From assembly GCA_001567115.1 (NCBI GenBank), contig LMZT01000162.1, positions 1-33,417 on the forward strand: a DNA stretch of 33,417 nucleotides, read 5' to 3'. The first letter of the stretch is position 1. Each line of letters opens with the position of its first letter. The DNA comes from Candidatus Hinthialibacteria bacterium OLB16. GTDB lineage: Bacteria; Hinthialibacterota; Hinthialibacteria; OLB16. Under the pieces are notes generated by a model that was not told the origin of the DNA, did no database searches, and worked only from the letters and a program-made list of their open reading frames with translations. Made by a program: the position numbers and the translations under genes. Positions 2,269-25,203 of this stretch are shown here, in pieces.

Positions 2269-3501
2269 TCACTGAGGCCCCAGCAGCTGCTGGAGTTTCC
2301 AGTGATCGGGTGCCTGAATGAGGAGCTCACGAATCAGGATGTCCGCCTGGTCTTTCTGATCCGTTTTGGCATAGGCTTCCGCCAGATTGGCTTTCAGCAG
2401 GAAATCAGCCGGATGCTCCTTGAGCGCGGCGCTCAGTACTTCGATCGCCCGGGGTGCCTGCCCCCGCTCGATCATGGCTTCACTGCAAATGTAAATCACA
2501 TAAGGTGATTTAAGTCCATCGAGTTGTGTCATCACAGCCAGATTGGCTTCCGCTTCGCTCTTTCTGTTTTCTTTGCGATGGGCCAGGTATTCCATGACCG
2601 CTTTGAGAAGGGAATCAGTCTCCCCGGCAGTGACCTGCACCCTTTCGATTCGCTCGATGCGTTTACGTGCGGCATCGGCATAGGGGCCTTGAGCTTCGAT
2701 CAAAATCTCGAGCTGATAGTCGAAGAATGCCTCACGGGTATGTGAGAGGATCTCCTGGTTGATGCCACGGTTCAGGTGCAGAGCCGGAGCCACCGGAAAG
2801 GCTTCGATCCCCTGGTTCAGCAGGTCATGAACCTCCCGGGCTTTCCCTTTTTTATCCAAGGCCCAGGCAAAAAACAGATAGTCCACTGGTGTTGCCAGAT
2901 CCGGATCTTTTGCGAATGCCGATTTAAAGGCACTCTCGGCTTTATCCGTCTCATTCAGATTATGGCAGGCCTCGCCCAGCAGGTACAATGGAAGCGGATT
3001 GGACTGCTTCGCAGCACATGCCTCTTCAAGATACGGAACCGCTTCATGATTCTTTCCGAGCTGGATAAGAAATCCACCCAGGTGTGTCAGGGCTTCATTC
3101 TTGCAGGCCCCCTCCGGGTCCGGGAGCCGGTCGGTTTTGCTGGTCAGGGCCTTGCGCAAGATGTCCACAGCAGGCTCGAGGCGCCCCATCGAGCCACGTA
3201 TCCATCCCAGCAGAAAAGTGCTGCGGAGTTGATCGGGAGCCAGAGAGGTGCCTTTTTCAGCCAGGCTCAAGGCAGTATCAAGATCCCCGATGCGTGCAGT
3301 TTCGCGGACAATCATTTCAATATCATTGAAGTGGTTCTGCAGTGCCTGGCTGGAGGTAATCGAGGAGGGGGTGAGTGCCAGAAGCGCCTGGATCCGATCA
3401 CTGTACTGGCTCTCCCCGGCCCCAGACCATGCATCAGCAGTTGGAAATAGTGACACGCCAATGGCCAGAATCAGGGAGTATCGAATAGAACCGGATCGCA
3501 T
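2269..3501 (-). CDS. Secreted or periplasmic TPR-repeat protein
   Basis: A 410-aa protein with an N-terminal signal peptide (RYSLILAIGVSLFPTADA, likely cleaved near residue 25). The rest is a chain of tetratricopeptide-like helix pairs, for example DTALSLAEKGTSLAPDQ, EPAVDILRKAL, HEAVPYLEEACAA, DKAESAFKSAF and a C-terminal pair around RAIEVLSAALKEHP. TPR scaffolds mediate protein-protein contacts; there is no catalytic motif, so the partner is unknown. The start at 3501 is supported by an AGAGGT about six bases upstream. It sits between the radical SAM gene (43 bases away) and etfB on the same strand, without an obvious functional link to either. Confidence 0.8.
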   Translation of the reverse strand: MRSGSIRYSLILAIGVSLFPTADAWSGAGESQYSDRIQALLALTPSSITSSQALQNHFNDIEMIVRETARIGDLDTALSLAEKGTSLAPDQLRSTFLLGWIRGSMGRLEPAVDILRKALTSKTDRLPDPEGACKNEALTHLGGFLIQLGKNHEAVPYLEEACAAKQSNPLPLYLLGEACHNLNETDKAESAFKSAFAKDPDLATPVDYLFFAWALDKKGKAREVHDLLNQGIEAFPVAPALHLNRGINQEILSHTREAFFDYQLEILIEAQGPYADAARKRIERIERVQVTAGETDSLLKAVMEYLAHRKENRKSEAEANLAVMTQLDGLKSPYVIYICSEAMIERGQAPRAIEVLSAALKEHPADFLLKANLAEAYAKTDQKDQADILIRELLIQAPDHWKLQQLLGPQ

Positions 3502-3544
3502 TATGCACCTCTCTCCATGATCAGGGTTTGGGGTCGTTCGGGCA

Positions 3545-4723
3545 TCAGGTGGAGGCTGTTGCCTTCAATGGAAACAAATTCTGCTCCCCCATGCGCCTGA
3601 GCTGAACACAACCCTTGCAGACTTCGGGGACACGCCCTTCGATCCAATCCCTCTGGAAATCACTATAGCGCTTTGTGCGTATCAACTCATCCAGGGTGTT
3701 CTGATAAAGATTTCCAAGGATTCCCGGATCCTCGGGTGCAGGCTCCAGGTAAGGGCGTGTATTGAGGACATTCAGGTAGCAGCAGGAAGACAGGTTCCCA
3801 CGATAATCCACAAAGAGATTCGTAATCGGGCGAACCAGGCAGGCTCCCTGGGAACCCATCTGGTAAGGGTGGATTTCGATATCGATGCGCCCCTCCGCAA
3901 TGCCGCGGCTCTTCTCTTTGACCCTTTCAAGGTCCTGAATTATCTCGGGATCGGGAGGAGGAACATAGCCCGTATCGAACAGAGCCTCGGAAAATCCCTC
4001 CGCTGTAAGCGTGCACTCGAGGTGCTTGGCGACAATGCGGTTAAATCCAAGTTCGGCAGCATATTCGACAGCCAGTGGAAGTTCCCGGTAGTTCGATTTC
4101 ATGAGAATAAAAACCCACACCATGAAGACATCGGAGCTGGCCTCCTCCTTGAGAGTCCGAAATGCGCGCAGGGTATCCAGGAGTTTGAGGAAGGTTCCCT
4201 TTCCTCTGACCGCCTCATAGGTTTCCGGAGTCCCCGCATCGATTGAGACACTGATGCAGTCGATTCTTTCCTCCAGAAGGCGCCGTGCCATTTTTCCCTT
4301 GAGCAGGAGGCCATTGGTGGTAACAACCGGTCGGGAACCCGCCTGGCGCACTGCATGGACATAATCGAGGAAGTGCGGAGACATGAGCGGTTCGCCATAT
4401 CCAGCCAGGTGGATATATTTGAAGCGGGAGATCCAGGGTTTCACCTTCTCGAACAGTTCGGGTGGCAGAACCTCCTGAGGAACCCCCTCAAAGGTTCTGG
4501 GGCACATCATGCAGTGGAGATTGCAGGCATAAGAGACTTCCAGAGCAAGGTGGTCCGGCAGGATCGGGTATTGAACCGGCTCGGGAAAAGCATCCCTCAT
4601 TTCGATGCGATCCGGCAGGGAAAACGCATCGATCGGATTTTCAGAGCGGGGAAAATGGGAATTCGAACTCCCATTCCTCTGGCGTGAAAAAGATTGGATG
4701 ATGTTTCGAAATTTCGAAAACAT
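3545..4723 (-). CDS. Radical SAM protein with SPASM C-terminal domain
   Basis: A 392-aa radical S-adenosylmethionine enzyme. The 4Fe-4S motif CNLHCMMC (Cys67, Cys71, Cys74) is followed by the GYGEP SAM-contact motif and by TTNGLLL and ISVSIDAGTPETYEAVRG strands of the TIM-barrel. The C-terminal region has a Cys-rich SPASM layout (GAC, SSCC, CKGC) for auxiliary clusters, next to a TPxTLDELI-like helix. SPASM proteins modify peptides or act as dehydrogenases or carbohydrate enzymes; the substrate here cannot be read from the sequence, and no small precursor peptide is next to it. The ATG at 4723 is preferred; a TTG at 4771 overlapping the acylphosphatase stop would add 16 residues. No strong ribosome site is seen for either. 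Confidence 0.88.
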   Translation of the reverse strand: MFSKFRNIIQSFSRQRNGSSNSHFPRSENPIDAFSLPDRIEMRDAFPEPVQYPILPDHLALEVSYACNLHCMMCPRTFEGVPQEVLPPELFEKVKPWISRFKYIHLAGYGEPLMSPHFLDYVHAVRQAGSRPVVTTNGLLLKGKMARRLLEERIDCISVSIDAGTPETYEAVRGKGTFLKLLDTLRAFRTLKEEASSDVFMVWVFILMKSNYRELPLAVEYAAELGFNRIVAKHLECTLTAEGFSEALFDTGYVPPPDPEIIQDLERVKEKSRGIAEGRIDIEIHPYQMGSQGACLVRPITNLFVDYRGNLSSCCYLNVLNTRPYLEPAPEDPGILGNLYQNTLDELIRTKRYSDFQRDWIEGRVPEVCKGCVQLRRMGEQNLFPLKATAST

Positions 4724-4767
4724 GGTTTCAGTCAAATAAGCGGATGAGTGAGATCTCACCCTGCCTG

Positions 4768-5052
4768 TCAAAATCGATACTCCACTCCCCAGGAAGATCC
4801 CTCAGAAGGCGCCTCCCCCTCACGCCAGTCTGAAAGAACCTGGTCCACACGAGACAGGATCGGACCCTGCCTGACACGGACCAGAAGGTTTTCCAGGTCC
4901 TCTTTTTCGCCTGCAGCTTCCAGTTCGACATCACCATCCGGAAGATTCCTGACCCAGCCATTCACATTCAGCTGCCGGGCCTCATCCATGACGAAATAGC
5001 GAAAACCGACCCCCTGGACCCTCCCTTTTACAATACAATGCAGGACCTTCAT
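4768..5052 (-). CDS. acyP: Acylphosphatase
   Basis: A 94-aa small cytosolic enzyme that hydrolyses carboxyl-phosphate bonds. The family signature GRVQGVGFRYFV is followed by GWVRNLPDGDVELEAAG. The catalytic Arg (in VGFR) and Asn (in VRNLPDG) are both present. I start at the ATG at 5052; the open frame continues 34 residues upstream but that extension has no family likeness. It lies between the cytochrome b/c gene (98 bases upstream) and the radical SAM gene, which begins 44 bases after its stop. Confidence 0.92.
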   Translation of the reverse strand: MKVLHCIVKGRVQGVGFRYFVMDEARQLNVNGWVRNLPDGDVELEAAGEKEDLENLLVRVRQGPILSRVDQVLSDWREGEAPSEGSSWGVEYRF

Positions 5053-5150: not shown

Positions 5151-6518
5151 TCAATCACCGGATCGATCGCCGGGCTTGAACCAGTGGATTTTATCCACCA
5201 GCAGGGCTTTGGCCTGTGCTGGTGAAAGCTTTGAGGCAAAGGCGGGCATCCTTTCATCTTCAGGAATGTTCTGGTCATCAACACCTTCGAGGATCGCCTT
5301 GAGGAGGCGGACCTCCGAGGGAGAACTCTTCCAGTAATCTTCACTTGAGAAATCGGGGGTGGTTTCAAGATACCCGGATCCATCTCTCCCATGGCAGTTC
5401 TGGCATTCCTTTTTGTAAAATTTTTCCGAATCGAAACCGGGTTCGGGTTCGACCTCCCATAAAGCGACCTCTTTGAAATGACCGGACTGGACATCCTGCC
5501 AGACAGAAAGGCCCGATAAACCGCATACCGCTGCAAGAAGGAGCAGGGAAACCAGGATGACCGCCTTGCGGTGGTTCCTTGCCCCATTGTCAATCCATGG
5601 AATCAGGACAAGAAAAAGGAGGATCAGGTGAGGGATCAGGACCGATCCGATAAATTCCCAGGGGGGAGGACAATATTTGAGAGTCTCGAACAGCCAGCGG
5701 AAATACCACTCGGGCCGTGCCGGATAGGTCTCCAACGGATTGGCCACAGCCCCCAGCTGGACCGGCATGCATACCGAAAAAACATATAAAGCCAGAAAGA
5801 CCCCAGCTCCACACAAAGCATCCCGCCAGGCCTGTTCCGGCCAGTAACAGCAGGCTCCAGAAATTTCATCCTTCCCTGACCGCAGGAAAAGAGTGGTCGA
5901 TAGATACAACAGGAAAAAGGCCATCAACATCGATGGCAGGAAAAGGGCATGGAGCGCATAAAAGCGGGTCAAAGCCAGGTTTCCGATTTCGGGCCCCCCG
6001 AGCGCAATCGATTTCAGGATCGGACCCAGAAGAGGAACCGACCCTAGAATCGATGTTCTGACTTTGGTCCCCCAGTAACCATATTGGTCCCACGGAAGCA
6101 GATAACCGGTCGTGGCGATGATGATCAGAATGCCGCCCATCAACAGGCCCAGAACCCATTTGATCTCATTGGGTGTGCGGTACCCGCGGGCCTGGATCCT
6201 CTCCACCAGGCAGAGAAGCAGCAGGGCGGCGATCAGATGGGCGCCATAAGCATGAAGGCTTCTCAGCAGGTGGCCGGCGGTGGTCTCCTGCATCTGGTAT
6301 TTGACACTCGGATAGGCTGCCGACACCCCGGGAGAGTAGGACATCGAAAGGAAACAGCCGGTTATTCCTTCGAAAATCGTCAGCGCAATCACCAGAAAGA
6401 TCAGAGTTTTCCGGAGTGAGGGTTTTCCCTCGAGCGGGAGTGCAGTAAAAAGGGGGAGGATGCGCCTCCCCCCGGTCCGTTGATCCATCCAGTTTACAAA
6501 CTTCGAAAACTTCCCCAT
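5151..6518 (-). CDS. Cytochrome b fused to a C-terminal cytochrome c domain
   Basis: A 455-aa polytopic protein combining a cytochrome b6-type N-terminal half, a subunit IV-like half and a C-terminal c-type heme domain. It is the membrane core of a Rieske/cytochrome b quinol:cytochrome c oxidoreductase. Helix B and D lines align without gaps to cytochrome b6. His89 and His190 match the p-side heme ligands, but Cys103 and Tyr205 occupy the places of the two n-side heme histidines. The quinol-site PEWY motif is intact at 269-272. The c domain has CQNCH (372-376) and a probable distal Met424 (RMPAF). It follows the Rieske gene by seven bases, with GAGGGG just before its ATG. The missing n-side ligands are discussed in the findings. 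Confidence 0.93.
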   Translation of the reverse strand: MGKFSKFVNWMDQRTGGRRILPLFTALPLEGKPSLRKTLIFLVIALTIFEGITGCFLSMSYSPGVSAAYPSVKYQMQETTAGHLLRSLHAYGAHLIAALLLLCLVERIQARGYRTPNEIKWVLGLLMGGILIIIATTGYLLPWDQYGYWGTKVRTSILGSVPLLGPILKSIALGGPEIGNLALTRFYALHALFLPSMLMAFFLLYLSTTLFLRSGKDEISGACCYWPEQAWRDALCGAGVFLALYVFSVCMPVQLGAVANPLETYPARPEWYFRWLFETLKYCPPPWEFIGSVLIPHLILLFLVLIPWIDNGARNHRKAVILVSLLLLAAVCGLSGLSVWQDVQSGHFKEVALWEVEPEPGFDSEKFYKKECQNCHGRDGSGYLETTPDFSSEDYWKSSPSEVRLLKAILEGVDDQNIPEDERMPAFASKLSPAQAKALLVDKIHWFKPGDRSGD

Positions 6519-6525
6519 CAGCCCC

Positions 6526-7025
6526 TCAAACCTCGACCGGCTCGGGGAGGTTCGGACGGAAGTTCACCCACCGGCAATAAATTTGGCCATCCCGGATCTG
6601 TGTGGGGAGCGGATCGAGGTTCCGAGGAGAAGGGCCTCTCAGCCTCGCCCCATTATCTTTCCAGAAAGATTGATGACAGGGGCAGTGGAATTGCTGTGTC
6701 CCACTGTCAAAATTGACCGGACAACTCAGATGCGGACAGACCGAAGAAAGAACCATCGGGGCTTCATCCCGGTTGAGAACAAAAACAGTCTGTTCCTGAA
6801 TGCGCCTCTCCCAGCCGTCACGAACCACCAGGTGAAGGGTTCTGACCGATACGGAACCAGAGGGAAAATCATCGACCGTTCCGAGAAGGTGCCATTCATC
6901 ATCCGGAGCGGATTTTCGCAGACAGGTGACAGGAGGTGCCCCACCCCCGGAACCAGGGCCAGGCCAGACAGGATCCCCCACGAGAAGAATGTCAATGTGG
7001 ACTTCAGAACACCCCTTCTTTCCAT
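6526..7025 (-). CDS. Rieske iron-sulfur protein, frame broken by a one-base deletion
   Basis: The 2Fe-2S subunit that takes the first electron from quinol and passes it to cytochrome c. Two frames together make one normal protein of about 165 aa. From 7025 the first frame gives a basic start and a membrane anchor (WGILSGLALVPGVGHLLSPV). From about 6930 the second frame gives KSAPDDEWHLLGTVDDFP and the cluster motifs CPHLSC and HCPCHQS. Adding one base, for example in the A4 run on the coding strand (6913-6916), joins them as SPVCEKSAPDDEW. The downstream cytochrome b gene is intact. No usable start for the second frame alone would retain the anchor. Either a sequencing error or a recent mutation explains the break. 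Confidence 0.88.
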
Positions 7026-14336: not shown

Positions 14337-14357
14337 AACCTGGAAAGGATTTTGTGA

Positions 14358-15740
14358 ATGTCATCGATTCGGACAGTTCTTGATTATGCAACCGCGAACA
14401 AAGCGCGTTATGAAAACGATTTAATCGAATTTCTGAAGTTTCCCAGCATCAGCGCTTCTCCGCAGAGCCGTACAGATATCCTGCAATGCGCCGAATGGCT
14501 GGCCGGGAGATTCAGGGCTGCCGGATTGGAAACAGAAATCACTCCCCACCAGAGGCTGGCCTGCGGTGGTGGCCCGCACAGGCCCACTCAAACCGGAGCG
14601 GCCCACGGTTCTGATATATGGCCATTATGATGTCCAGCCAGTCGATCCAGTGGATCTGTGGAAAACACCTCCCTTCGATCCTGTCGTAAGGATGGTGTGG
14701 TGTATGCACGCGGCGCGACTGATGACAAAGGGCAGCTCCTCACGCATCTGCTGGCTGCAGAGGCCTGGATGAAAACTATCGGGGATATTCCACTGAATCT
14801 GATCTATCTGATCGAAGGTGAAGAAGAAATCGGCAGCCCCCACCTCGAGGAATTCATCCTCGAGCATCGAGAGAAGCTTCAGGCCGATGTTGTGGTGATT
14901 TCCGACACCAGCCAGTTCGGCCCGGAAATGCCGGCTTTATGCTATGCCCTGCGTGGTTTGACCTATATGGAATTCATAGTCACTGGCGCCAACCAGGATC
15001 TGCACTCAGGCATGTTTGGGGGCATTGTCCCGAACCCCAACCAGGTGGTTGCGGCCATTGTGGCGGAGATGAAGGGGCTGGATGGGCGGATACGAATCCC
15101 GGGATTTTATGATGGAGTGAAACCGCCTGAAGGCTGGGAAGTGGCGGAATACGAAAAGCTTCCCTGGAATGATTCCGATCTGGCGGCACAGCTCGGCCTG
15201 CCAGGCCTTTCTGGTGAAAAAGAATACCCGGCCCCGGTTCGGCGCTGGTACCGCCCGACCCTGGATGTCAATGGGATGTATGGGGGATATGCCGGAAAAG
15301 GGGCAAAAACTGTCATCCCTTCGATCGCGGGCGCCAAGGTCAGCATGAGGCTGGTTTCCGGTCAGAACCCGGAAAGGGTTGCAGAGCTGTTTGAGGCCTT
15401 TGTCCGTGAGCGAGTCCCGGATGACTGCAAAGTTGAGGTCATTCGTTATCAGAACTCCCCGGCCATCATCATTCCGGTCGATCATCCAGCCATGCAGGCC
15501 GCCAAAGTTGCCTTCAGGAACGGTTTCGGGAAAGAGCCACTCCTGATCCGGGAAGGAGCCTCGATTCCAATTGTGGCTTTTTTTGTGGATACAATGAAAA
15601 TGCCCTCCATTCTGTTCGGCTTTGGTTTGCCGGATGATAACCCCCATGCGCCCAACGAAAAGTTCACCCTTGCGGATTTCCATCGTGGAATCGCCACCAG
15701 CGCCCATTTCATGGATGTGTATTCAGAAGCTGCGGGATAA
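14358..15740 (+). CDS. M20-family dipeptidase, two compensating frameshifts
   Basis: A metallopeptidase of the ArgE/DapE/carnosinase-like group, about 460 aa when repaired, the usual length. Segment one (14358 to about 14545) has [17 protein letters not shown]. Segment two, in another frame, has [20 protein letters not shown] with the first metal His and Asp. Segment three, back in the first frame from 14688, has [24 protein letters not shown] (catalytic Glu pair), DLHSGMFGG and the C-terminal HAPNEKF metal site. Removing one C from the C4 run at 14544-14547 and adding one A at 14688-14689 restores a single frame. The start has AAAGGA eight bases upstream. All metal and catalytic motifs are intact, arguing against long-term decay. 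Confidence 0.87.
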
Positions 15741-21190: not shown

Positions 21191-23446
21191 GTGGTTGAAG
21201 GATCTGGTGGAACGACACAGGAAGGAACGCTCCTCGAAGAAGCAGGGTTGACCCTGCGGAAAGAGGATCGCAGCCAAATTATCTCACCTGAAGAACGCCA
21301 GGATCTCGAAAATCGCCTGCAGATTCTTCTCGCCCGGATTCCACCTGAAAAAGACAGCCCTCTCGAATCACTGCCTCGAAAAGCCTTCGAATATGCCATG
21401 CAGGCCCATTCCGGCCAGTGGCGTGTTTCTGGTGAGCCTTATATCACCCACCCGTTGACAGTGGCAGAGATCGTCACCGACCTGGTCCCCGACCGTGAGA
21501 CCCTCGCAGCCTGTTTATTGCATGATGTTCTCGAAGACACCTCTGTCAATGCAGACATGCTCCGGACCGAATTTGGAGAAGAAGTCGCATTTCTGGTTGA
21601 AGGGGTCACCAATGTCAGCCGCATCCGTTTCGGCATGCCCCACGAAAAGCAGGTCGAAAACCTGCGCCGGCTGCTGGTGGCCACCGCCAAGGACCTGAGG
21701 GTTATCCTGATCAAGCTCTGTGACCGTTTGCACAACATGCGGACACTCGAAGCCTTGCCGACCATCAAGCAGCGCCGAATTGCGCAATCAACCCTCGATA
21801 TTTTCGCACCCCTGGCTCACCGGCTGGGGCTGGAAAGGATCAAAAACGAGCTCGAGGATCTCTGCCTGTATTATCTTCATCCCTCCATCTACCGTGACAT
21901 CAAGCACAAGGTGGACGAACGGCTGGCGGCACGCCTCGATTACGGGCGCAAGGTGCAGAATATCGTGGCCGATGTGCTGGCGACCAATGGAATCGATGCG
22001 GAAGTGGAATGGCGGGTCAAGCACTTCTACAGCATTTTTTCCAAGATGCAGCGGGACAACAAGGATTTCTCCGAGATATACGACCTGACCGGAATCCGCA
22101 TCCTGGTGGGGACAGTGGAGCAGTGTTATGCCAGCCTCGGGATGCTCCATGGAGTCTGGCCTCCTGTCGAGGGGCGGTTCAAGGATTACATCTCCAAACC
22201 GAAACCGAATGATTACCGCTCGCTGCATACCACGGTTCTTGGCCCGGAAGGCAGGCTGCTGGAAGTTCAGATACGGACCCATCAGATGCACCGGGTATGC
22301 GAGGAAGGGGTTGCCGCTCACTGGCGGTATAAGGAGCGGGGGCGCAGCAGCCGCAAACTGGGAGATGATGCAGTCTGGTTATCCCAGATGTCAGGCCTGC
22401 TTCAGGAAACCCGGGATCAGGATGAATGGTCCTATTCGATCAAGACGGATCTTTTTACAGATGAAGCCTATTGTTATTCGCCGAAGGGAGACATCATCCG
22501 GCTGCCGGCGGGATCCTGCCCGATCGATTTTGCCTACCACATTCATACCGAACTCGGGGACCGTTGCCAGGGAGCGAGAGTGAACGGGCGTTATGTGCCG
22601 CTTTCCTATCAGCTCAAGACCGGCGATGTGGTGGAAATCGAAACCTCAAAATCAGCGCATCCCTCACCGGACTGGCTCGGGCTGGTAAAAAGTTCCCGGG
22701 CACGCCACAAAATCCGGAATTACCTCATCGAAGCGAATCGTGAGCAGCTGATCGAACAGGGGAGGCTGATGCTGGGCCGGGAGCTGCATCGCCTGGGTGT
22801 CAATCCCCCCACTTTCTTCAGCTCGGATGCCTGCATGGAAATCATGGAGTCGCTGGAAATCCAGCACCTCGATGACCTGTTCGCGTTGATTGGTTTCGGA
22901 CGCATTGCCACCAAGCAGGTGGTGATGCGCATCATGAAATCACGCGCCAGGGAGAAGAAGGTCGAAAAGCGCCCAATCGGAGAGACCCTCAAGGCAACCG
23001 ACATCGATGACATGCTTTACCGTCTGGCACGCTGCTGCCAGCCGGTCCCTGGTGAAAGCATCGTCGGACTGGTGACACGCGGGCGGGGGATTTCAATCCA
23101 TCGTGAAGATTGCACCAATATCATCAAGTTCCAGGGTGATCGTGCGCGTCTGATCCCGATTCGATGGGAAGAGAATGGCCAGGCGGGTTCTCAGGTCGAA
23201 ATCACAGTCCACGCCAATGACCGTCAGCAATTACTGGCTGACATTACCAGCGTGATTTCCTCTCATGCAGTCGACATTCGTGGCAGCAATACAGTGAGTA
23301 CAGATGATAGCAAGGCAATCCTGACTTTCACCATTCTGATACGGGACATCAAGCAGCTTCGCCGGCTGGCAACCAGTCTGATGGACATCCGCGGGGTGAC
23401 CAATGTATCGCAGAAACGTGGATCGAGAACGATTCGATTGACCTGA
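21191..23446 (+). CDS. rel: Bifunctional (p)ppGpp synthetase/hydrolase, RelA/SpoT family
   Basis: A 751-aa Rel protein making and degrading the stringent-response alarmone. In order it has the hydrolase HD domain (SGEPYITHP, LLHDVLEDT), the synthetase domain (YDLTGIRILV, GRFKDYISKPKPNDYRSLHTTV, EVQIRTHQMH, AAHWRYKE), a TGS domain (IDFAYHIHTELGDRC), a zinc-finger-like region (RCCQPVPGESIVGLVTRG with SIHREDCTNI) and a C-terminal ACT domain. The RFKD motif in the synthetase is the form typical of bifunctional enzymes. I start at GTG 21191, nine bases after AAAGGAG; the ATG at 21182 would sit directly on that site, and a TTG at 21167 is upstream of it. A TAGAAT at 21161-21166 could be a -10 but has no good -35. 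Divergent from the GreA fusion. Confidence 0.95.
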   Translation: MVEGSGGTTQEGTLLEEAGLTLRKEDRSQIISPEERQDLENRLQILLARIPPEKDSPLESLPRKAFEYAMQAHSGQWRVSGEPYITHPLTVAEIVTDLVPDRETLAACLLHDVLEDTSVNADMLRTEFGEEVAFLVEGVTNVSRIRFGMPHEKQVENLRRLLVATAKDLRVILIKLCDRLHNMRTLEALPTIKQRRIAQSTLDIFAPLAHRLGLERIKNELEDLCLYYLHPSIYRDIKHKVDERLAARLDYGRKVQNIVADVLATNGIDAEVEWRVKHFYSIFSKMQRDNKDFSEIYDLTGIRILVGTVEQCYASLGMLHGVWPPVEGRFKDYISKPKPNDYRSLHTTVLGPEGRLLEVQIRTHQMHRVCEEGVAAHWRYKERGRSSRKLGDDAVWLSQMSGLLQETRDQDEWSYSIKTDLFTDEAYCYSPKGDIIRLPAGSCPIDFAYHIHTELGDRCQGARVNGRYVPLSYQLKTGDVVEIETSKSAHPSPDWLGLVKSSRARHKIRNYLIEANREQLIEQGRLMLGRELHRLGVNPPTFFSSDACMEIMESLEIQHLDDLFALIGFGRIATKQVVMRIMKSRAREKKVEKRPIGETLKATDIDDMLYRLARCCQPVPGESIVGLVTRGRGISIHREDCTNIIKFQGDRARLIPIRWEENGQAGSQVEITVHANDRQQLLADITSVISSHAVDIRGSNTVSTDDSKAILTFTILIRDIKQLRRLATSLMDIRGVTNVSQKRGSRTIRLT

Positions 23447-23464
23447 TAGAGCCGTCTGCTGCAC

Positions 23465-25203
23465 TCAGTTCCTGGCGCCAGCCTGGAGCATCTCCTCAGC
23501 CAGACGCAGGCTTCCCTCGCTCGTCTCGCTTCCCATCATACGGGCCAGTTCTTCGAGGCGCGCCTGAGCTTCAAGCGCCACAATAGTGACCCGGGTGGTC
23601 TGGCCGCTGGCTTCCTTTTCAATCTTGAGATGATGGTCTCCCTTGGAAGCGATCGGAGCCAGGTGGGTGATGCACAAAACCTGGCGCTCATTTGAGAGGG
23701 ACTTGATCTTGCCGCCGACCACCAGTGCCGTTTTCCCCCCATTCCAGAGTCGATTTCATCGAAGACCAGGGCATCGACGCCATCCACCCGGGCCAGAACC
23801 GCTTTGATGGCCAGCATGACGCGAGAGATTTCCCCCCCCGAAGCTACCTGGCGAAGAGTCTTCATCGGCTCACCCGGATTGGTGGTAATGCGGAAATGCA
23901 CCATATCCCAGCCGGTTGAGGTAATGGGATTCTCCTCATCCTGGGGATAGCGCACCCGGTGAACATTCGGAGCGCTGGATGCATCCAGCCGGGCCACTTC
24001 AGCTTCAAAGCGGGCAGAAGGCATACCGAGCTGGCGCAGTTCGGTGGTGATCTCACCACACAGCTGTTTGGCAACCTTGCGGCGTTTGACAGTCAGATCC
24101 GCCGCCAGCCGCCCCAGTTTCTGGTTCAGCTGGTCCAGCTCCTTCTCCAGCAAGGCGCGTTCTTCATCGAAGTTCTCGAGTTTGTCGTATTCGGTTTTTG
24201 ATTCGCCAAGGAACGCAAGGATTTCCTCGATGGAGTTTCCATATTTTCTTTTCAGGTTATGAATGAGGTGGAGGCGGGATTCAATTTCATCGAGCCGTCC
24301 GGGCTGGAATTCAAGGCCTTCCTGGTAACGGCGGATCAATGTGAGGAGTTCATCGATTGCAGCAGCCGCTGAATCAGCCAGTGACCGTGCAGGAGCGAGA
24401 TCAGGATCACGCTGGCTGAGATCCTCGATCAGAGCCTGCACCTGGCCAAGCCCATGATCGATTCCAGGGGAGTCTTCAGCGCCTCCTTCGAGCAGAGAGA
24501 GAATCGCAGTTGAATTCTGGGTCAGGGCTTCGAAATTTCTGAGGCGGCGCCTTTCAGCAGCCAGTTCATCTTCTTCGCCGGGTTTCAGGTTTGACTGTTC
24601 AATTTCATTGACCTGGTAGCGCAGCTGGTCGAGGATGCGGTGGCGCTCCCTCTCCTGTGCGACCAAATCATCGAAACGCTGCCGGGTTTCTCTCCATTGC
24701 TCATAGATTGCGCCAAGCCTGACGACATCCTCATTGAGTTCACCGAAATCATCGAGAATGGTGAGGTAATTGCGCGGATGCAGCAATGTCTGATGGTCAT
24801 GCTGCCCATGAAGATCCACCAGCAGATGGCCGATTTCATTGAGTGTCGCCAGTGTGGTGGTCGAGTTGTTGACATAGCAGCGATTTTTTCCGGCCTTGTT
24901 GAGTGTGCGTTTCAGGATGAGGGTTTCATCGACCTCCAGCCCGGATTGCTCGAGGAACTCGACAAAACGCCGGTAACCAGGCCTTTTCGCATCCAGTTCA
25001 AAAACAGCCTCGACTGTCGCCTGATCCTGGCCCTGGCGAATCAGGTCACTGGAGGCTCTCTCGCCAAGAACCATCGACAAAGCACCGATGACGATGCTCT
25101 TGCCGGCTCCGGTTTCACCAGTAATGACATTCAGACCCGACCGGAATTTGAGATCAGCCTGATCGATCAGGACATAATTGCGGATTGAAAGATCGGTCAA
25201 CAC
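23465..25203 (-). CDS. recN: DNA repair ATPase RecN, frameshifted near the Walker B end
   Basis: An SMC-like ATPase acting in double-strand-break repair, 579 aa when repaired. The N-terminal half-ATPase has Walker A GETGAGKS (29-36). The long coiled-coil middle runs to about residue 370. The C-terminal half has the signature ASGGEISRVMLAIKA and Walker B ALVFDEIDSGMGG. At 23731-23740 (G6A4 on the coding strand) the frame is lost. Adding one base there continues it as GGKTALVVGGKI, LCITHLAPIAS and the normal C-terminus to 23465. The unrepaired frame instead runs on to 23536 with unrelated residues. GTG start with GGGGGAG seven bases upstream and a good promoter at 25294-25322. Confidence 0.9.

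Follow-up and report, generated by a model that had tools for sequence, protein, structure and literature searches.

The cytochrome b encoded in the window, that is the whole stretch of 33,417 nucleotides analysed here, has lost both ligands of the n-side heme as far as its sequence tells, each being replaced by a residue other than histidine, while the p-side heme site, the quinol oxidation motif, a Rieske partner and a fused c-type heme are kept. With a probability put at roughly 0.55, the complex would operate on its p-side only, as a linear, non-bifurcating quinol:cytochrome c oxidoreductase standing beside an alternative complex III. The paired loss had been described for this single protein in an earlier note on the same DNA; not only does it hold, it extends to the whole clade to which the protein belongs.

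The window protein and its family

The locus comprises the following features, numbered along the window.

5151..6518, minus strand: cytochrome b (seven predicted membrane helices) with a fused C-terminal cytochrome c domain, 455 aa (Pfam, AlphaFold2, Foldseek)
5247-5249, minus strand: Met424, conserved, likely distal ligand of heme c (alignment)
5391..5405, minus strand: CQNCH heme c attachment site (residues 372-376) of the fused c domain (sequence, Pfam)
5703..5714, minus strand: PEWY motif (residues 269-272), quinol oxidation site, kept (sequence, alignment)
5904..5906, minus strand: Tyr205, second n-side ligand position, Tyr in 3/3 family members (alignment)
5949..5951, minus strand: His190, p-side heme ligand, kept (alignment; His in 258/258 surveyed proteins)
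6210..6212, minus strand: Cys103, first n-side ligand position, mostly His among relatives; the other two family members have Thr and Ile (alignment)
6252..6254, minus strand: His89, p-side heme ligand, kept (alignment; His in 258/258)
6399..6401, minus strand: Ile40, at the site of the n-side heme-packing glycine of helix A (Gly in 244/258; alignment)
6526..6981, minus strand: Rieske [2Fe-2S] domain ORF (CPHLSC...CPCHQSF), directly upstream of cytochrome b (Pfam Rieske, E 1e-9)
6921..7025, minus strand: N-terminal membrane/TAT anchor (MERR...) of the Rieske gene, in another frame, ATG at 7025 (match to the Rieske gene of G002)

By fold as well as by sequence, the protein belongs to the Rieske/cytochrome b (bc1/b6f) family. 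Its gene runs on the minus strand from an ATG at 6518 down to 5151, over 455 codons with no internal stop, and the product matches the Pfam domains Cytochrome_B (PF00033, E 8e-36) and Cytochrom_B_C (PF00032, E 6e-6) followed by a C-terminal cytochrome c; the AlphaFold2 model (pLDDT 86, pTM 0.83) has bc1 cytochrome b chains as its best Foldseek matches (TM 0.6-0.7). It is also the sole Cytochrome_B match in the window genome (G000; 4.05 Mb, 93% complete). Residues 44-206 align gap-free with the cytochrome b6 chains 2zt9 and 1vf5 (HMMER), and in the multiple alignment the four ligand positions read H89/C103/H190/Y205 where b6 has H/H/H/H, Cys103 lying 14 residues past His89 and Tyr205 15 past His190. 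The assignment by eye in the earlier note, which put His89 and His190 on the p-side ligands and Cys103 and Tyr205 on the n-side ones, is sustained by both alignments at all four positions. Compared with the bc1 and b6f complexes, the window complex has in common the fold, a predicted p-side bis-His site, PEWY, the Rieske partner and a c-type heme, which the CQNCH-bearing domain would supply; it differs in lacking both histidines expected for n-side bis-His ligation and in carrying its c heme on a domain joined to the C-terminal end of the cytochrome b chain.

While the phylum sample is small (14 genomes, three of which, G000, G001 and G002, make up the family), the homologues in both other family genomes exhibit a double loss as well, where histidine at both sites would have spoken against the note. 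They read H/T/H/Y in G002 and H/I/H/Y in G001, at 46% and 42% identity and with the same order of parts; the tyrosine of G001 was placed 15 residues past the histidine by MAFFT with a stricter gap penalty and by hand count. With C/Y, T/Y and I/Y across the family, the tyrosine is conserved (3/3) and the cysteine is not, so that the expectation that Cys and Tyr would be conserved together stands for its second half only. The suggestion that Cys103 holds a different cofactor fails on this variation, all the more as independent double-loss proteins have Tyr or Gln at this position. Two further candidates for the n-side site were discarded, namely a replacement histidine, since His94 is not conserved among the members, and a heme cn of the b6f type, since the column of b6 Cys35 in helix A holds no cysteine in 3/3 members. 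In the three-member alignment, helices B and D contain no family-wide histidine in their n-side halves.

In a tree computed without the two ligand columns, the three family proteins form a single clade (support 99/95), the window protein having the longest branch (1.04 versus 0.66 and 0.75). Their nearest neighbours are likewise c-fused cytochromes b, from Planctomycetota and from a MAG labelled Deltaproteobacteria (L032-L039, L151-L153); unlike the window family, these all keep four histidines, which makes the loss a derived state. Of these neighbours, L033-L039 (Schlesneria and other Planctomycetota) have four His, yet TGNPLS instead of TGYLLPWDQ after helix C. The quinol site motif reads PEWY, PEWY and PEWF across the three family members, and the p-side motifs common to all of them speak for constraint on these proteins, which are too divergent for a comparison of substitution rates. 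Besides its double-loss gene, G001 encodes a separate four-His cytochrome b adjoining its own Rieske gene (locus L041).

Repeated loss among 258 cytochromes b

The survey covered 258 distinct cytochrome b cores, gathered by profile searches over other phyla and from about 118 further loci. Both p-side histidines are present in 258/258, and one or both n-side ligands are replaced in 15/258, an imbalance beyond what chance would produce. The double loss concerns six of these rows, namely the three family members, G763 (Tyr/Tyr), and G873 and G914 (Gln/Gln), the last two genomes being 100% complete in one or two contigs. Single losses affect the first ligand in L149/L189, L283 and L028 (all Q/H), L252 (Y/H) and L197 (A/H), or the second in L217 (H/G), L201 (H/Y) and L194 (H/F). 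Like the window genome, G002, G873, G914 and G763 have no Cytochrome_B match besides the double-loss gene. With all rows placed on a tree that omits the ligand columns, built by a quick method under a single-matrix model, parsimony requires 10 changes when any loss is scored and 3 when only double loss is, the latter falling on the window family, on G763 and on G873/G914. G763 groups with its own family at support 100, and since three of those members are four-His, its double loss is separate from that of the window.

Most loss cases come from the phylum of G498, which is probably Planctomycetota, given that in the tree its members are intermingled with loci assigned by name to Schlesneria. 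A single genus contains both states at the first n-side ligand, Gln in L149/L189 (G498 and G647, both complete genomes) and His in L190/L298 (G890, G984), and the Gln/His state thus reads as a recent single loss within the genus. Several single-loss proteins also depart from PEWY (PEWE, PEWH, PEWM and PEWF among L201, L197, L252 and L149), hinting that the quinol site changes as well. In the highly divergent cytochrome b L028 (G027), the first n-side ligand is Gln and SISWYI takes the place of PEWY.

Helices A and C of cytochrome b contribute the glycines against which each heme is packed, and abandonment of the n-side heme predicts that the n-side glycines be lost alongside its ligands. The n-side pair (columns 40 and 124) is Gly/Gly in 231/243 four-His rows versus 6/15 ligand-loss rows; put the other way, glycine is missing in 9/15 loss rows versus 12/243 others, with a Fisher p of 9e-8 that overstates the evidence because the rows are related by descent and not independent. 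At least one n-side glycine is gone in 6/6 double-loss rows, and the p-side pair is unchanged in 15/15 ligand-loss rows. The Gln/Gln and Gln/His genes are under purifying selection and not decaying: for the double-loss gene, G873 versus G914 gives a dS of 0.166 and a dN of 0.0146, that is a dN/dS of 0.088 (0.060 for the b part), and for the Gln/His gene, G498 versus G647 gives a dN/dS of 0.036.

Respiratory setting and proposed mechanism

In the window genome and its family, an aa3-type oxidase cluster is preceded by NrfD-like and ActF-like genes. In G002 the order is ActA (five CxxCH), ActB, ActC, ActD/E, ActF and SCO, then the oxidase genes; called by this gene order, an alternative complex III is encoded in the family, so that the heme-poor Rieske/cytochrome b complex is probably not the sole quinol:cytochrome c route. 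At the level of domain matches, the NrfD family is also present in G873, G914 and G763. Two long heme-copper proteins of the window genome (775 and 763 aa; L059:4247-6574, minus strand, and L060:6222-8513, plus strand) look like quinol-dependent NO reductases. A CRISPR-like repeat array lies beside a TnpB/Cas12-like ORF in G002 (L043:2293-2916 and 3483-4916, minus strand).

The non-bifurcating quinol oxidase proposed in the earlier note is a plausible mechanism, and the one preferred here. The n-side heme b would not be bound and quinol would be oxidised at the p-side site, its first electron passing to the Rieske cluster and on to the fused c heme. The second electron, with no n-side heme through which to reach an n-side quinone, would be barred from crossing the membrane and would park on the p-side heme, or be shared by this heme and its counterpart in the other half of the dimer, until a later stroke in which it too exits through the Rieske cluster; both electrons would therefore leave in turn by way of the Rieske protein and the c heme. 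Such a complex would release protons with no charge moved via the b branch, and the alternative complex III would take over the main energy-conserving duty. A bc1 complex blocked on its n-side normally oxidises quinol slowly, and for this reason the linear mechanism would need extra adaptations. Growth is reportedly still supported when the Q cycle of a Rieske/cytochrome b complex is broken, as in the Chlamydomonas b6f mutants of Malnoe et al., which are laboratory mutants of a b6f that keeps its heme cn. Another man-made likeness is the H212N mutant of the Rhodobacter capsulatus bc1, in which the change of a single n-side ligand abolishes heme bH, so that the n-side branch is impaired while the p-side branch is left (PMC4807273; PMC4330944). 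That mutant reverted under selection to a heme-binding Lys (PMC4807273), whereas the type found in the window is natural, concerns both ligands, and is old and maintained.

Rival readings and significance

Among the alternatives, a shortened Q cycle is the one that survives best, although it is rather improbable. Quinone would bind in the vacated, Tyr205-lined n-side cavity and be reduced directly by the p-side heme, bifurcation surviving over a shorter distance. The invariance of Tyr205 in the family and the recurrence of Tyr in G763 and G968 fit this reading, as does Asp233, which the alignment places close to where ordinary cytochrome b binds its n-side quinone and which is kept in 3/3 members; however, four-His relatives, too, often have Asp or Glu at 233, so that Asp233 is not diagnostic and was set aside as proof of such a site. 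Besides, the Gln/Gln lineage has Asn at this position, and no conserved polar cluster was found there other than the tyrosine.

Somewhat less probable still is an n-side heme that remains bound, either in a high-spin state with Tyr as its single axial ligand (in the family and in G763) or through other non-His ligands. That a high-spin heme can sit on the n-side is illustrated by heme cn of b6f, and the Tyr found at the second ligand position in 3/3 family members would provide the ligand. The engineered His-Lys hemes b of R. capsulatus assemble and function, so that non-His ligation can work, which counts against a heme-free n-side (PMC4807273). Against a retained heme, every double-loss protein is without an n-side packing glycine, the partner position holds Cys, Thr, Ile, Tyr or Gln, and the Gln/Gln lineage has no plausible ligand at all.

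It is unlikely that the complex is merely a pseudogene in progress in the window's organism, as its long branch and its Rieske gene could suggest. Residues 1-35 of the G002 Rieske protein match one frame of the window and residues 36-166 another, with a switch near 6921; the claim that the Rieske partner is kept is accordingly right as to the presence of the gene, which is intact in G001 and G002, but the window copy is frameshifted between the anchor and the cluster domain. Over 131 aa, the latter has 44% identity with its counterpart in G002, and the Rieske gene adjoins cytochrome b in G000, G001, G002, G873 and G763. Two normally intact genes of the window are frameshifted too: recN (23350-25203, minus strand) loses its frame near 23760, its conserved C-terminal part lying in another frame, and an M20-type peptidase gene (14340-15740, plus strand) switches frame twice near its start, around 14600. 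For this reason, the Rieske frameshift is probably an indel error of the assembly; moreover, the cytochrome b frame is open with all p-side motifs present, and the Rieske genes of those relatives that share the loss are intact. As for a mere alignment or sequencing error, with other histidines filling the n-side site, it is refuted by the relatives despite the indel errors carried by this metagenome assembly, since the alignment is gap-free to structures and relatives alike, the frame is intact as the earlier note had stressed, and the double loss, which consists of substitutions that indels do not explain, is seen again in two further genera of the family and, independently of these, in G873 and G914, both complete genomes.

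The two-heme motif is highly conserved in Rieske/cytochrome b complexes (PMC9720722). Since the Q cycle depends on it, the pair of b hemes that spans the membrane is regarded as the invariable core of bc complexes. In the open literature, no natural cytochrome b without n-side ligands was found; an earlier mention may exist in subscription reviews of Rieske/cytb diversity. It is proposed, tentatively and at slightly less than even odds, that p-side-only complexes devoid of heme bn evolved repeatedly in bacteria that also encode an alternative complex III, and that together they make up a natural class of non-bifurcating quinol:cytochrome c oxidoreductases. Since the anchors of one heme have been lost several times, the bacteria concerned probably oxidise quinol without the textbook Q cycle. 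If true, these natural complexes would let one ask how the second quinol electron is handled without crossing the membrane, what holds down short circuits and superoxide, and what purpose such a complex serves beside another quinol:cytochrome c enzyme, questions for which a testable host may be available, the genomes of G873 and G914 being complete.
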